A stretch of DNA of 64,000 nt from Aliikangiella sp. G2MR2-5 (lineage in GTDB: Bacteria; Pseudomonadota; Gammaproteobacteria; Enterobacterales; Kangiellaceae), in assembly GCF_015687155.1 (NCBI RefSeq), contig NZ_JADPQF010000001.1, positions 496,001 to 560,000 of the forward strand, given 5' to 3'. The notes under the pieces are model-generated. The model did no database searches. It was not told the origin of the DNA and saw nothing but the letters and a program-made list of their open reading frames with translations. Position numbers and translations under genes: made by a program. Within the stretch, counting starts at the first letter, position 1. The number at the start of each line of letters is the position of its first letter. Below, one piece after another: positions 33,569-38,104 of this stretch.

Positions 33569-33959
33569 GAGTAAGGGGTCTACTACGATAGATGGTTTCC
33601 GGCAGTGTATTTAATAATAGCGGCAAATGGAAGGCTGGTGCTGTAGGATAACGGCCTGGCCGGGATGGAACGTGGATACAGGCGGTGAATGGTAATAAAT
33701 CTTCAATATTACTAATCAGCTATGTGGAGCCATGTCAAACCATTCGGGGAATTCTGGCGTCAGGATGACTCGTTCGTAAAAATAAAATGTATCGGCTCCT
33801 ACTCGTACTGTATAAGTAGTTGTGGTCAAGTGATAATGTTCTTACCACGCTTCATTATTTGGCTATCCATATGATTTTAAAAGAACTTCTATTTTCGAGA
33901 TGTGTATTTATCGTCAGTAAATCACGATAATAACGAGACTTTACTTTAAGTTTGACGTC
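33569..33959. other. Intergenic region left of the cassette array
   Basis: 391 bp with no supportable gene. It holds the promoter of the kinase-regulator pair, a GTAG-headed GC-rich palindrome at 33643-33663 (CGGCC-T-GGCCG), and at 33907-33932 one arm of an inverted repeat whose other arm (34011-34036) lies inside the first cassette copy. No integrase gene and no clear attI site is seen. Confidence 0.55.
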
Positions 33960-34159
33960 TAACTCATGGCTACGAGACAAAAAGCTCTTTTGCATATAAA
34001 AAATTTTCCGTATTATCGTGATTTAGTGAAGATAATAATCTGTTAAGAGCAGAATACGGAGAACAAATTTTTCTGCTGAGAGTAGTTGAGTGATACGGTA
34101 ACATAATGCCGTATCGATATTTGCGTTTTATCGAGAGAAAAATAAATAAGGGAGTTGAC

Positions 34160-34387
34160 GTGCCATTTTTTCATCGTTACCTTAAGGCGGAGGCCGGGCG
34201 CGTTGATGAAATCGTGGTTACATGCAACGGACACTGCCTCCGCCTTAAGGAGAAGAAAGTCACATCGCCATCATTCCTTGTTTGTTCTTCCTATCGTAAA
34301 CTCGCCAATCTGAGATCGTACAAAGTTAGTATTCCGAAAAACAGGAATACATCAGACAGAATTGTGCGAGCTCTTAACAACCCGTAG
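34160..34387 (+). CDS. Cassette A ORF, copy 1, unknown function
   Basis: 75 residues from GTG 34160, chosen because AAGGGAG lies six bases upstream. An in-frame ATG at 34106 would give 93 residues but has no ribosome site. The TAG at 34385 lies inside the attC-like site, as usual for cassette genes. The protein is basic, with two Cys in VVTCNGHC and another in LVCSS; no family is recognised. Its first third is encoded across a perfect 15-bp inverted repeat (34180-34194 / 34236-34250), so the reading may be secondary to a structured RNA. An identical copy is at 36552-36779. Confidence 0.45.
   Translation: MPFFHRYLKAEAGRVDEIVVTCNGHCLRLKEKKVTSPSFLVCSSYRKLANLRSYKVSIPKNRNTSDRIVRALNNP
34180..34250 (+). 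repeat. 15-bp perfect inverted repeat inside cassette A
   Basis: CCTTAAGGCGGAGGC at 34180-34194 and its exact complement at 34236-34250 enclose 41 bases. The loop holds a further short GTTG/CAAC pairing. The same structure is in the second cassette copy at 36572-36642. It is far stronger than expected by chance inside a coding frame. Confidence 0.85.
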
Positions 34388-34435
34388 CATGTGACAAAGT
34401 TGAAAGACACTTCGCACATGTACTTTTCGTTAGGC
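34372..34435 (+). other. attC-like recombination site 1 (end of cassette A copy 1)
   Basis: 64 bases. The R'' box is TCTTAAC and the R' core site is GTTAGGC, matching GTTRRRY. Inner arms GTAGCATGTG and CACATGTAC pair with one extrahelical G, the asymmetry that directs integrase strand choice. The spacer is about 12 bases. Confidence 0.75.
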
Positions 34436-34439
34436 ACAT

Positions 34440-34943
34440 ATGAAGAAACGTCGACCTACAATTCCATTTTCAGGCTGGATGCTGGCTGTTGATTTGGAAG
34501 AAACCAGAAAAATACAGAATCAGAAAGGTACGCCTGCTTACGGATGTGATTGTGATTTATGCACAGAATGGAAGTTGGCGTATAAGAAAATAATCCCTGA
34601 AAAATTATTAGACGAGTTTGGCCGAGCTGGAGTTGAGCTTCAATCACCAACTGATCTTTACGGCTCTGGCTCTGGAGATGAAGAGCGAACTATAAGAGTT
34701 ACTTTCCACTTCATAGGAAAGATTTTAAGTGGATTAAACGGCGCTACACATGATGATAGATTCGACTATGATGGATTTCCATATGAAGTCGTACGAGATA
34801 ACCCATACTTTAGTGTTAGAGTGATTCCTCAACAAGAAACATATGTATCCGCTCCTAATTGTGAAGCCAAGGGGAACTCCCGTGTCTTATGTATAGATAT
34901 GAGACTTGGCTATCCCGCTAAGTACGTGTGTGAAAATGCCTAA
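34440..34943 (+). CDS. Cassette B protein, unknown function
   Basis: 167 residues, starting 11 bases after the G-TT junction of attC 1 and with its TAA inside the R'' box of attC 2, the compact form of an integron cassette gene. No family is recognised. Near residue 33 a C-D-C-x2-C cluster (YGCDCDLC) suggests metal binding. The middle is acidic, with a GSGSGDEER stretch, and a further Cys is in SAPNCEA and LCIDM. No signal peptide or membrane helix is seen. It probably depends on read-through from upstream, as no promoter fits in the 10-bp leader. Confidence 0.7.
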   Translation: MKKRRPTIPFSGWMLAVDLEETRKIQNQKGTPAYGCDCDLCTEWKLAYKKIIPEKLLDEFGRAGVELQSPTDLYGSGSGDEERTIRVTFHFIGKILSGLNGATHDDRFDYDGFPYEVVRDNPYFSVRVIPQQETYVSAPNCEAKGNSRVLCIDMRLGYPAKYVCENA

Positions 34944-35003
34944 CAAGGGTTAGAAAATGAATTCGGCTAAAAAACAGCCTCACAATTTAAACAAGCGTTA
35001 TAT
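34938..35003 (+). other. attC-like recombination site 2 (end of cassette B)
   Basis: 66 bases. The R'' box GCCTAAC matches RYYYAAC and contains the stop codon of cassette B. The R' core is GTTATAT. A central GGCT/AGCC hairpin with an A-rich loop forms the unpaired tip. Pairing of the inner L boxes is weaker than in sites 1 and 4. Confidence 0.6.
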
Positions 35004-35230
35004 GTACTTTTATGATTGACACAAACTAAATCAGACACTCAGGTTTTAATAGATGCCTATATGACTCACGGCCTATCAGTATTTTAAGGGTAAAACTTAA
35101 GAAAGGCTTATAGATATTGCTTGAAAAAACAAAAAGCCAAAACTCGTAAGAATAATGTATCGACATTTGATTCTTCGACATAGCTACGCCTACCAAATCA
35201 GAATAGAAAAGATTTTTTAGTCTTTATCAA
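35004..35230. other. Non-coding stretch left of the transposase gene
   Basis: 227 bp after attC 2, AT-rich, with no plausible ORF. It may be the flank or 3' end of the element that carries the transposase. No terminal inverted repeat matching the right flank was found by eye. Confidence 0.4.
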
Positions 35231-36205
35231 TTAGGACTGATACAGCAACTTCGCCTGCCCAACTCCCTTAACCCAGCTTTTCTTAATGGCTTTAGCCTTT
35301 TCTCTGAGTTTATCAATTGAGCCCATCATCGTCGGTTGTCCATGACAGAGCTTTTGAATTTGGTCGAGCCAATTACCTTGTTGAATATTTAAACGCTGAA
35401 AGATGGAGCTGACATAAGGCGGAATAGCAGCCTTTTTCTGATGAACAATAGCACGGCCCGTCCATTCTACTAAAGCTAGGTAATCACTCAGGTTAAATGT
35501 GCAAAGAGACTCATCAGGCGACTGGTTAACCGGAATCAGTGGTTCATTCATCTGAAGGGGTGAAGTTTTTAGTTTATCAATTCGCCGTTTGATTGACGTG
35601 TGGAGTGAGGATTCCAGCTCCTGAGTAATCCCTGTACGAATTGGATTTAAATCGACATAAGCCATACAGGCAAGAACTGAAGTTTCATCGAGTAGCGGAA
35701 TCGACTGATAGCGAGATTCCCAGAATCGACCTTTGACACAATCTTCCAGGTTACTCTGTTTCGCCAGAGGCTCATTCAGCCTTGCCATAAACCAGGAAAG
35801 CTTGCCGAGGCGTTTTCGATACTTGGCCAGTTTAGCTTTATCCGCCATGATAGCCTGTTTCTTTAATTCTCGAAGTTTATGGTTCTCAGGTTTATCCAAT
35901 CGGCCGGGATAGGCCTTTAACCAACGCTCGGCGACTTGTTCATCAGTTAATTTTTCAGCGCCTTTAGGGTCAACTTTCAGAACCAGATGATAATGGTTAT
36001 CCATGATGGCGTAAGCGTAGAGTGATACAGAGAAAATATCTGACAGCGCCAGCATTCGATTTTCCAGCCAAGCTTTGCGATGGTCACAGTTACGCCCAGA
36101 AACAGGATCATCGCCACATAGATAAGCGCGTCGAACGCAGCGGGAAATGCAGTGATAAAATCCAGCTGACTCACTGTCAACGAGATATTTACGAGGTATG
36201 GCCAT
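35231..36205 (-). CDS. REP-associated (Y1, HUH) transposase
   Basis: 324 residues. The AGFYHCISRCVRRAYLCG start, the HUH motif in DNHYHLVLKV and the YVDLNPIRTGI segment with the probable catalytic Tyr place it in the TnpA_REP (RAYT) family, related to IS200/IS605 transposases. These single-copy enzymes cut single-stranded DNA at hairpins headed by GTAG or GGAG and are thought to spread REP elements. It lies against the cassette direction between the two copies of cassette A. GTAG-headed sequences occur at 36289, 36312 and 33643. The frame is full length, without damage. Confidence 0.88.
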   Translation of the reverse strand: MAIPRKYLVDSESAGFYHCISRCVRRAYLCGDDPVSGRNCDHRKAWLENRMLALSDIFSVSLYAYAIMDNHYHLVLKVDPKGAEKLTDEQVAERWLKAYPGRLDKPENHKLRELKKQAIMADKAKLAKYRKRLGKLSWFMARLNEPLAKQSNLEDCVKGRFWESRYQSIPLLDETSVLACMAYVDLNPIRTGITQELESSLHTSIKRRIDKLKTSPLQMNEPLIPVNQSPDESLCTFNLSDYLALVEWTGRAIVHQKKAAIPPYVSSIFQRLNIQQGNWLDQIQKLCHGQPTMMGSIDKLREKAKAIKKSWVKGVGQAKLLYQS

Positions 36206-36351
36206 TAGTTCTCATCCTTGAGAAGAAAGTTCTGCTCTTATTCTACCTGTTCATTGATTCACGCCAATCAGCTAAATCCGCTCAAGCTGTAGGAAAAGGC
36301 CGGTTGATGTTGTAGGATATTGGATTAAATCAGGATGTCTGAAAATAGATT
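36206..36351. other. Right flank of the transposase gene with GTAG motifs
   Basis: 146 bp. Two GTAGGA motifs (36289 and 36312) frame AAAAGGCCGG, a pattern close to RAYT target sites. This also must hold the promoter of the transposase gene. Cassette A copy 2 begins at once after it, with no attC-like site at the join. Confidence 0.4.
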
Positions 36352-36824
36352 TAACTCATGGCTACGAGACAAAAAGCTCTTTTGCATATAAAAAATTTTC
36401 CGTATTATCGTGATTTAGTGAAGATAATAATCTGTTAAGAGCAGAATACGGAGAACAAATTTTTCTGCTGAGAGTAGTTGAGTGATACGGTAACATAATG
36501 CCGTATCGATATTTGCGTTTTATCGAGAGAAAAATAAATAAGGGAGTTGACGTGCCATTTTTTCATCGTTACCTTAAGGCGGAGGCCGGGCGCGTTGATG
36601 AAATCGTGGTTACATGCAACGGACACTGCCTCCGCCTTAAGGAGAAGAAAGTCACATCGCCATCATTCCTTGTTTGTTCTTCCTATCGTAAACTCGCCAA
36701 TCTGAGATCGTACAAAGTTAGTATTCCGAAAAACAGGAATACATCAGACAGAATTGTGCGAGCTCTTAACAACCCGTAGCATGTGACAAAGTTGAAAGAC
36801 ACTTCGCACATGTACTTTTCGTTA
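36352..36824 (+). repeat. 473-bp direct repeat, copy 2 (duplicated cassette)
   Basis: Perfectly identical to 33960-34432. Both copies end at the same attC core position and are followed by different cassettes (B after copy 1, C after copy 2). This is what is expected of two independent cassette insertions or a cassette duplication. Confidence 0.95.
36552..36779 (+). CDS. Cassette A ORF, copy 2, unknown function
   Basis: Identical to the ORF at 34160-34387, with the same GTG start behind AAGGGAG and the same stop inside an attC-like site (93 residues if the ATG at 36498 is used). The 15-bp inverted repeat is at 36572-36586 and 36628-36642. Total identity of both copies, including silent sites, means that the duplication is recent or is kept uniform by recombination, so no conclusion on coding selection can be drawn from comparing them. 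Confidence 0.45.
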   Translation: MPFFHRYLKAEAGRVDEIVVTCNGHCLRLKEKKVTSPSFLVCSSYRKLANLRSYKVSIPKNRNTSDRIVRALNNP

Positions 36825-36827
36825 TGT
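36764..36827 (+). other. attC-like recombination site 3 (end of cassette A copy 2)
   Basis: The same site as attC 1, with the core reading GTTATGT instead of GTTAGGC because the bases after GTTA come from the next cassette. That difference is direct evidence of joining at the G-TT position. Confidence 0.75.
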
Positions 36828-37191
36828 GTGTGAAAATATGAATCCAGAATGCAAATTTTATATGGAGATAGAAGCCCCTAAAGGACTAGCTGGGATAGAG
36901 GAGCATCTAGGTCGTTGTAGGCTTGACGTTATGCCATATTTATCTGGATATAACAAAAAAGTCATCTTAAAGGCGGGGCAAGATTGTAATTACCTCGAGT
37001 GGGCAATGGACTCATCGGATACTGATATTATGATCGCGCATGGATATTTCGAAATTCCTGTCGAAGATGCTTGGATGCTGCTGAGTGACTTATCTATAGC
37101 GCTAGTTGCAGCAGGATTTCCACACTATATTGGTATAGATGATGAAGACGGCAACAAAAAATATGCAACGTCATTTCTATGGCAAGAGTAA
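36826..37191 (+). CDS. Cassette C protein, unknown function
   Basis: 121 residues from ATG 36826, which lies inside the attC 3 core region; the ATG at 36838 (MNPECKFYMEIE) would give 117 and may be the real start. The TAA is two bases before attC 4. The protein is acidic, with an ALVAAGFPHYIGIDDEDGNK segment in its C-terminal part. No family, signal peptide or helix is recognised. The layout (no leader, stop at attC) is that of a cassette gene. Confidence 0.65.
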   Translation: MCENMNPECKFYMEIEAPKGLAGIEEHLGRCRLDVMPYLSGYNKKVILKAGQDCNYLEWAMDSSDTDIMIAHGYFEIPVEDAWMLLSDLSIALVAAGFPHYIGIDDEDGNKKYATSFLWQE

Positions 37192-37193
37192 TC

Positions 37194-37249
37194 ACATAAC
37201 AAAAGGTTCAAACTGACGCCTAGCGGCGCAGTTTACCCAAGTGTTATGC
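37194..37249 (+). other. attC-like recombination site 4 (end of cassette C)
   Basis: 56 bases, the clearest site of the array. ACATAAC and GTTATGC boxes pair over seven bases (CATAACA / TGTTATG). An internal bulge separates them from AAACTG / CAGTTT, and CGCC / GGCG closes a small tip. This bulged imperfect palindrome is the hallmark of attC. Confidence 0.85.
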
Positions 37250-37259
37250 ATAAGTCATC

Positions 37260-37712
37260 ATGTACGGATTAATGCTATTTTTCGTCGTTTTTTTACTCAT
37301 TTGTTTTGCAGGCTATCGTTCGTCTCAAGAAAACAAGCGATTCAAGGAGGCGTATGATGCTTTTCTTGAGGAAAATGAGGGAAGTGAGTTCTTTTGCTAT
37401 ACGAATAGAGAGCTATTTTGCAGTTTTATTGAAGAGAAGCTAATCCCGAATCTGGAAGGTGATATATTCATTGTAAAACTGGAAGGTAAGGTGCCGAAGA
37501 GTGAATTTGATGAGAAGTTCATGTCCTATTCTTTGTGTCGCTTAAGAAACGTTGGTTTTCCCAATGTTATGAAAATTGTAAACGGACAATTCATCGACCA
37601 CTCCATACACAATGAAATTTACAATGCTATTAATAATGAAAAATTCGATGAAGTGCAAACCATAGTGCAGAATGCATTGTTAAAAATAAGAGGGGCTTGT
37701 AAAAATGCATAA
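37260..37712 (+). CDS. Cassette D membrane-anchored protein, unknown function
   Basis: 150 residues, starting 17 bases after the attC 4 junction, with its TAA inside a GCATAAC box. One N-terminal helix (MYGLMLFFVVFLLICFAG) anchors it, followed by a charged KRFKEAYDAFLEENEG stretch and a soluble domain with several aromatic residues. The C-terminus holds IYNAINNEKFDEVQ. No family is recognised. It is the last cassette before the stable chromosome resumes with the sigma factor. Confidence 0.65.
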   Translation: MYGLMLFFVVFLLICFAGYRSSQENKRFKEAYDAFLEENEGSEFFCYTNRELFCSFIEEKLIPNLEGDIFIVKLEGKVPKSEFDEKFMSYSLCRLRNVGFPNVMKIVNGQFIDHSIHNEIYNAINNEKFDEVQTIVQNALLKIRGACKNA

Positions 37713-37757
37713 CAAAAATTGGTGTCACAAAAATTGGTGTCAGAGTTAATTAATTCT
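37707..37757 (+). other. Degenerate terminal attC-like site with tandem repeat
   Basis: A GCATAAC box holds the stop of cassette D, but no paired core follows at the expected distance. Instead ACAAAAATTGGTGTC is repeated in tandem (37712-37726, 37727-37741) and then a CAGAG-TTAATTAATT-CTCTG palindrome follows. The site seems eroded. Confidence 0.5.
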
Positions 37758-38104
37758 CTGAAAAATCAAAAAGCGAGGTCAATGTCGATAACTTTGATTT
37801 AGAGATAGATTTACACTGACCCTAAATTTTTCTTGGTATAAAGCCAATCCCCAATAAAGACAAGTTGTTCGATTTGCTGGGGGGACTATGGTTATAGTCT
37901 TAATAATTCTGATGGGGATGTCAGCGTATACGGTAAACACATAAGGTGTTTTATCTACAACAAATTTCACTTAACGAAACGCAGGAAATTGAAATACGGA
38001 AAGGCACGGATTAGTTAACTTTTTAACTAAAAAAGAAAATTTCTTGTAAGAAAGAGATAATCTCCTTCGTCCTATAGGATAGAAGCGCGATAAGGAGAAA
38101 GTCA
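37758..38104. other. Intergenic region right of the cassette array
   Basis: About 350 bp without a convincing gene. A 63-codon minus-strand frame (37779-37970) has no domain or ribosome site. The last 60 bp hold the ECF-type promoter described next. Confidence 0.5.
38044..38073 (+). promoter_or_regulatory. Putative ECF-sigma autoregulatory promoter
   Basis: TTGTAAG (38044-38050) and CGTCCT (38068-38073) are 17 bp apart, close to the TGTAA-N17-CGTC pattern of many ECF promoters. It lies about 30 bp before the sigma-factor gene, which suggests that the factor drives its own operon. Confidence 0.5.

Follow-up and report, generated by a model that had tools for sequence, protein, structure and literature searches.

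The stretch of Aliikangiella sp. G2MR2-5 analysed here (the window: 64,000 nucleotides, C1:496001-560000 of the genome) carries an array of gene cassettes that fits the usual definition of a CALIN (cluster of attC sites lacking integron integrase), yet it is headed by an attI site and is thus an integron platform that lost, or never carried, the integrase gene intI. We consider it probable, at roughly 0.68, that the array is one such integrase-less platform among 12 attI loci in this genome, and that its attI unit, deleted for intI, was loaded with cassettes in trans. Read from left to right, the array consists of an attI site, cassettes A and B, a gene resembling those of REP (repetitive extragenic palindromic)-associated tyrosine transposases (RAYT-like), a second attI site, and cassettes A', C and D. 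An earlier note on this DNA had described a CALIN-like array without an integrase; the attC cluster and the lack of a nearby intI stand, but the array is headed by attI. The two attI sites, a 473-bp exact repeat, the RAYT-like gene and an intact integrase (IntI) on contig C23 were missing from that account.

Recombination sites were scored with three models. R1, an attC covariance model, has 11 training sites, all from this genome and including window sites 1, 2 and 4. R3, an attC model made without window sites, draws on 12 sites, three from other genomes, and holds only 11 pairs, its structure being inconsistent across the alignment. R2 is a 45-nt attI sequence model with 11 training sites, eight of them from this genome and the first attI site of the window included; with no more than 150 candidates scored in any genome searched, its counts are lower bounds and its negatives incomplete. 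The features of the array (ORF, open reading frame) are as follows.

33830..34045, plus strand: attI-proximal unit, copy 1; 216 bp up to the attI core
33957..33963, plus strand: inverse core RYYYAAC (GTCTAAC) inside the attI region; the left end of the 473-bp repeat falls here
33960..34432, plus strand: 473-bp exact repeat, copy 1 (right part of the attI unit, cassette A, attC1)
34009..34048, plus strand: attI site 1, core GTTAAGA at 34042-34048; R2 51.8 bits, E 3.8e-13 per genome
34106..34387, plus strand: cassette A ORF, 93 aa, no family
34372..34435, plus strand: attC1, core GTTAGGC; R1 62.4 bits, missed by R3
34440..34943, plus strand: cassette B ORF, 167 aa
34938..35003, plus strand: attC2; R1 70.9 bits, R3 69.2 bits
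35231..36205, minus strand: RAYT-like gene, 324 aa, inside the array
36352..36824, plus strand: 473-bp exact repeat, copy 2 (right part of the attI unit, cassette A', attC3)
about 36401..36440, plus strand: attI site 2, in repeat copy 2; R2 51.8 bits at C1:532397-532439
36498..36779, plus strand: cassette A' ORF, 93 aa, identical to A
36764..36827, plus strand: attC3, core GTTATGT; R1 59.9 bits, missed by R3
36826..37191, plus strand: cassette C ORF, 121 aa, no family
37194..37249, plus strand: attC4; R1 58.9 bits, R3 38.3 bits
37260..37712, plus strand: cassette D ORF, 150 aa, no family; own attC unrecognisable by R1 and R3
37729..37830, plus strand: repeat abutting the right end of the array, 102 bp, 96% identical to C32:346382-346483

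The attI head is identified by homology. When positions 33955-34436 were compared with the rest of the genome, the first ~90 bases recurred elsewhere, including C1:1696042-1696129, which separates an integrase gene from its cassettes, and the window array is therefore an integron platform and not a plain CALIN. Longer queries extended the shared unit to 216-295 bp; by blastn, 33830-34045 matched seven other loci in full at 79-90% identity (L022, L023, L024, L026, L027, L028 and L030) and two in part (77% over 123 bp at L031, 87.5% over 48 bp at L032). The inverse core RYYYAAC lies at -89/-90 in all ten own attI copies examined, and the unit holds an 83% inverted repeat with arms at 33908-33942 and 34001-34035, of which the upstream one repeats the attI-proximal sequence in inverted orientation and is conserved among copies. 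The best conserved parts of the unit include its last ~40 bases and this inverted arm (~-147 to -110), with more variable sequence between them; positions -222 and -192 are likewise well conserved. In the core of attI site 1 the final base deviates from GTTRRRY.

The right end of the unit coincides with the attI crossover, as copies read ...GTGATTTAGTGAAGATAATAATCTGTTA or a near variant and then differ. Six own copies (L024, L026, L027, L028, L030 and L031) are 90-97% identical over ~225 bases up to the core (~125 bases for L031), and only 13-38% identical in the 60 nt to its right; the window copy is 73-87% identical to the others left of the core and 18-37% right of it. Identity up to the crossover with unrelated sequence beyond it implies that a different cassette was joined at each of the six copies, and each attI would have received a different cassette set at its G^TT crossover. 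The window head thus combines homology to an intI-linked attI with identity that stops at the core, as expected of the attI of a complete integron, and no intI adjoins it. Strand agreement between the two kinds of site was high: in 83 of 89 distinct cases the attC lay downstream on the attI strand (86 typed, minus three sites seen twice, at L139 and L173), ten of these 83 having trained R1. The count leaves out R1 matches above E 0.1, the cluster of genome G016 and loci without a strong attI. At least one downstream attC was present at 32 of 46 attI loci.

Across the genome R2 gave 19 matches, 13 of them at E<=3.2e-7 in 12 loci (eight of the 13 being training sites); the remaining six were weak, on the opposite strand, and inside the same attI units. 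Diverged pieces of the unit at L133, L135 and L137 were excluded from the locus count. One of the 12 loci has an intact intI (C23), one an interrupted gene (C1:1.696 Mb) and one a C-terminal stub (C31), and intI is absent at the other nine by tblastn at E<=1. The intact IntI, found by the genome search that the earlier note had proposed, is encoded at C23:604555-605493 and scores 435.8 bits against TIGR02249; residues 6-322 of its 322 align to the Vibrio-type IntI4 (2a3v) at 311.8 bits, and it keeps the residues of the R..HxxR..H..Y pattern. The second gene, at C1:1696341 (locus L022), has its frame broken near the 3' end, and further pieces lie at C32:343378 and C31:1150, the latter being the C-terminal stub. 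Within the window there was no PF00589 or TIGR02249 match and no tblastn hit of IntI, which bears out the earlier statement that it holds no tyrosine integrase.

The case for action in trans turns on what stands in place of intI. A 77-bp stretch (-296 to -219) replaces the gene in several copies and is 84-87% identical among L024, L027 and L030, with L023 and L026 resembling these at 59-67%. A left-end motif, GTATCTTAAAGCGGA (up to three mismatches), lies 3' of intI in L034, L180, L140 and L138, and the orphan copies L023, L024, L027, L030, L031, L032, L172 and L195 carry it to the left of the attI region; the left edges of the ~295-bp unit differ between copies although this motif exists. The shared stretch suggests that several copies, three of them clearly, descend from one intI-deleted unit. 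Copies of the attI unit lie at unrelated chromosomal positions. If L024, L027 and L030 share the deletion, either their cassettes were joined after the loss of intI or the unit was exchanged in front of existing cassettes by its core, and both orders would need an integrase in trans. Joining at the intI-deleted copies would then have been the work of an integrase encoded elsewhere, either that of C23 or that of C1:1.696 Mb while it still worked. About a dozen docking sites are scattered over the chromosome, most of them lacking an integrase and holding different cassettes, which hints that many were perhaps served by a single one. The homology of the attI regions, their dispersal, the missing intI genes, the end of identity at the crossover and the recurrence in relatives are all seen in the sequences; from these we infer exchange catalysed by IntI, its action in trans and sites that may still work.

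It could be argued instead that many complete integrons were once present, each of which captured its cassettes in cis and then lost intI independently. We find this rather unlikely. Stages of decay do exist, from the intact C23 gene and the interrupted gene at C1:1.696 Mb to N-terminal stubs (L187, L197 and L203) and C-terminal stubs (C31 and L204); no clearly common deletion is seen in L023, L026, L028 or the window; and progressive loss of intI is known in Xanthomonas (PMC12444791). However, the stretch in place of intI is common to three own copies at 84-87%, and weakly to two more, as expected of a single deletion, and the first cassettes of the copies that share it differ.

Loci of this kind recur in relatives. 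Among 39 other genomes of the family, ten had an R2 match at E<=1e-4, eight of them two or more; the best match in twenty genomes of one genus (g5) was no better than 0.007, and 24 genomes of other families gave weak matches only (best E 0.0024). When 33 relative loci around R2 matches (E<=1e-3) were searched for intI (tblastn E<=1e-3), 27 lacked it, three had a substantial gene and three an N-terminal stub, one of which (L187) lies ~300 bases from a contig end; L191 counts once here with its six sites, and the intI loci L138 and L140 of G009 are outside the 33. In G016, six attI-like sites lie on one strand within 16 kb (L191, C63:178500-198400), five of them at E<=1e-4, with attC sites on the same strand, and apparently form tandem attI-headed arrays. 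A tree of 44 selected attI units from 11 genomes (leaving out L032, window copy 2, L188, L190, L194, L200-L202 and one G016 site) required 16 changes of genome label, against a mean of 30.3 and a minimum of 26 in 2000 shuffles. Own copies grouped with the attI of the interrupted intI (support 0.99), and those of other genomes fell largely together. From this clustering by genome, attI expansions appear to have happened separately in several genomes.

A DNA search of 60 relatives with the window attI region, in most of which 12 candidates were scored, gave only short matches, in G009 and G038. We compared 177 ORFs of own attI loci (at least 120 aa, nested frames included) with 37 loci, namely the 33 relative attI loci, L138-L140, and the kinase locus of G003 (L132), which is not an attI locus; at E<=1e-20 this yielded matches for intI, for the RAYT-like gene (in L201), for cassette B and two further ORFs at 34-41% (all three in L191), and for five ORFs in L132. 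Cassette B shares 42% of 153 aligned positions with an ORF of the attI-rich G016 array. No host position common to own and relatives' attI loci was seen, the relatives' flanks being short. The sigma gene that flanks the window array was not found in the stretches examined around the kinase orthologue in G003 and in a Colwellia metagenome-assembled genome, and thus no empty site could be read there.

A bolder proposal, which we offer tentatively and think possible at best, is a distributed integron, in which the integrase of one locus serves about a dozen attI sites and the attI region is itself a mobile unit without an ORF. Under such a scheme the unit would multiply through integrase-type exchange of its core sites with sites in the genome, new platforms for capture and expression would be seeded beside host genes, and the family would repeatedly turn single integrons into genome-wide cassette networks.

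Several results call for caution about a platform loaded in trans. No movement was observed, with one genome compared per species and no second strain. Over 37 positions, the attI of the intact IntI, which ends ...GTGATTTACTGAATACAATCAGCTGTTAGGC, departs from the orphan attI sites at 10-14 (at 12 in the case of the window), and the attI that does match, two bases away from the window site, belongs to the interrupted intI of L022. Only three copies clearly share the stretch in place of intI; the resemblance is weak in L023 and L026, unclear in L028 (40-52%) and not shown by the window copy. Nor did the search for the left-end motif place it at the window, L026 or L028, and at least four apparently chance matches to it lie elsewhere. 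Of the 46 attI loci, 14 lack a same-strand downstream attC (R1 E<=0.1), three attC sites lie upstream (all at L189) and three on the opposite strand, the core of L031 reads GCTA, and many inner nodes of the tree are weakly supported. A scan of the window for a cassette promoter (Pc) was unconvincing, with two promoter-like hits against a shuffle mean of 1.7. The main escape is gene conversion between copies, which could mimic a single intI-deleted ancestor. At locus L031 (C35:187936-189859) a 519-aa ORF, apparently inserted, lies between pieces of the unit that are ~1.7 kb from each other.

The RAYT-like gene within the array raises the question of whether the units were spread by something other than IntI. 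The best family of its protein is the REP-associated transposases, under the curated cut-offs: 33.5 bits against NF047646 (E 3.4e-8, cut-off 80) and 20.6 bits against Y1_Tnp (cut-off 23). It resembles a RAYT of NF047646 in being a 324-aa Y1_Tnp-like protein, and differs in its score and in lying inside an integron array. Besides six full-length close copies (76-100% identity, the window included), the genome has two pieces of 25 residues, both at contig ends. The gene might move attI units or might favour arrays as its targets. That the units were spread by a transposon or by single-strand transposition of the RAYT type, this gene being part of the machinery, is in our view improbable. The idea draws on the four of six close copies that adjoin attI units or a unit fragment (the window; L022, C1:1695k; L030, C34:23k; L137, C35:61k), on a diverged copy in the L028 array (C32:209k), and on a copy in relative G006 that an interval of ~1.9 kb separates from an attI match (L201). 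Yet no R2 or R1 match lies near the other two close copies (L205, cut off by a contig end, and L206) or near two of three diverged ones (L207 and L208), most own attI loci have no such gene, and a common right end of the arrays was sought without success; the element at 37729-37830 recurs near-whole only at C32:346382.

Turning to the attC sites, the cluster comprises four sites in the window by R1, two of which, attC2 and attC4, were found independently by R3. These are the four attC-like sites first noted from sequence, and scoring them answers the covariance-model check suggested there. The R1 hairpin has 75.3% of its cells paired over the 11 training sites, compared with 58.7% in shuffles and 31-37% in slid registers, and its 41 double-changed cells exceed the 17.4 of the shuffles and the maximum of 15 among slid registers. 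On both strands of the 64 kb (E<=10), R3 returned two matches only, attC2 and attC4, and did not find attC1 and attC3. The latter two are copies of one another, at the ends of the 473-bp exact repeat, and are supported by R''/R' boxes, a concentric 20-pair hairpin, the ORF layout and the divergence of the copies right after the core GTTA. A degenerate fifth site had also been claimed, for which neither R1 nor R3 gave a match; an R''-like GCATAAC at ~37707 runs into the ~102-bp repeat. A crude scan for R''/R' boxes was dropped for far too many false sites, and a stricter one (15 hits against 5 in one mononucleotide shuffle) was superseded; box scans being too unspecific, covariance models were used instead. 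Elsewhere in the genome, attC sites without a clear attI occur at C1:139 kb, C1:412 kb, C12:279 kb, C32:0-2 kb and C32:344 kb (L133-L136 and L029), where L133 and L135 contain decayed pieces of the attI unit and L029 contains an IntI remnant.

An ordinary CALIN, that is, cassettes at a secondary genomic site with an incidental resemblance to attI, is already disfavoured and very improbable: CALINs away from an integron (PMC12444791) and insertion at attG sites (PMC12901181) are described, but here 216 bp match seven other attI regions at 79-90%, identity between copies stops at the crossover, and R2 gives E 3.8e-13 against a best of 0.0024 in 24 genomes of other families. Chance, with the sites not being recombination sites at all, is likewise disfavoured and scarcely credible: R3 does miss attC1 and attC3, and the loose box scan was full of false sites, but covariation, the choice by R3 of only attC2 and attC4 in 64 kb, and strand agreement speak against it.

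Each cassette ORF had been said to start within about 20 bp of the preceding core site (cassette A excepted) and to stop in or next to the R'' box, and the ORF positions are as described; the proteins, thought to belong to no recognised family, indeed gave no match for any of the four at E<=0.001 in Pfam, NCBIfam, PADLOC or PHROGs. Cassette A has a strong inverted repeat within its coding frame (34180-34250, 26-nt arms, 85%). Kinase and ECF (extracytoplasmic function)-type sigma genes flank the array, again in agreement with the earlier note, and at gathering scores Rfam found only five tRNAs in the window. The repeat at 37729-37830, with GGTGTCAG near its start, is labelled REP-like by us; its C32 copy (L029) comes after attC sites, and pieces lie at C34:177739 and C12:271285. 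Hairpin-like repeats were noticed in the window, the 37729-37830 region included.

The 473-bp repeat ends at integron cores on both sides. On the right it stops with the GTTA of the attC core, exactly after which the two copies diverge; on the left it likewise stops with GTTA, as the bottom strand reads, within the RYYYAAC box. The nearest precedent for the module 36352-36824 is found in the deltaattI cassettes of class 1 and class 2 integrons, where attI pieces serve as 3' sites recombined by IntI1 (PMC12901181). Both have attI pieces within arrays, whereas there attI replaces attC 3' of the ORF and here it lies 5' of the ORF, at dispersed chromosomal loci. According to the same paper, IntI1 does not excise cassettes with an upstream deltaattI and a normal downstream attC, a result that argues against ready excision of the module.

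Sedentary chromosomal integrons of the Vibrio type carry one long array on one attI. The present genome resembles them in its IntI family, in the attI beside intI at C23 and in cassettes mostly of unknown function, and differs in having many short arrays on 12 attI loci. According to the IntegronFinder 2.0 paper (PMC9024848), integrons typically have one attI, close to the integrase, and attI sites other than class 1 are not detected. The window array shares with the CALINs of that paper its tandem attC-bounded short ORFs without a nearby intI, and differs in its attI head, which the tool, as described there, would not see. In Xanthomonas, where CALINs are reported at seven other loci (PMC12444791), one integron, integrase-less arrays elsewhere and intI decay are found as here; attI heads are not described in the passages of that study consulted. 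Dispersed attI-headed arrays were found in none of the matches listed in the open-licence literature, at the level of titles and abstract openings.

If the proposed reading is true, cassette capture can be spread across a chromosome, and some arrays filed as CALINs would be attI-headed platforms that current tools cannot recognise. The natural orphan attI sites of this genome make service by IntI in trans directly testable.

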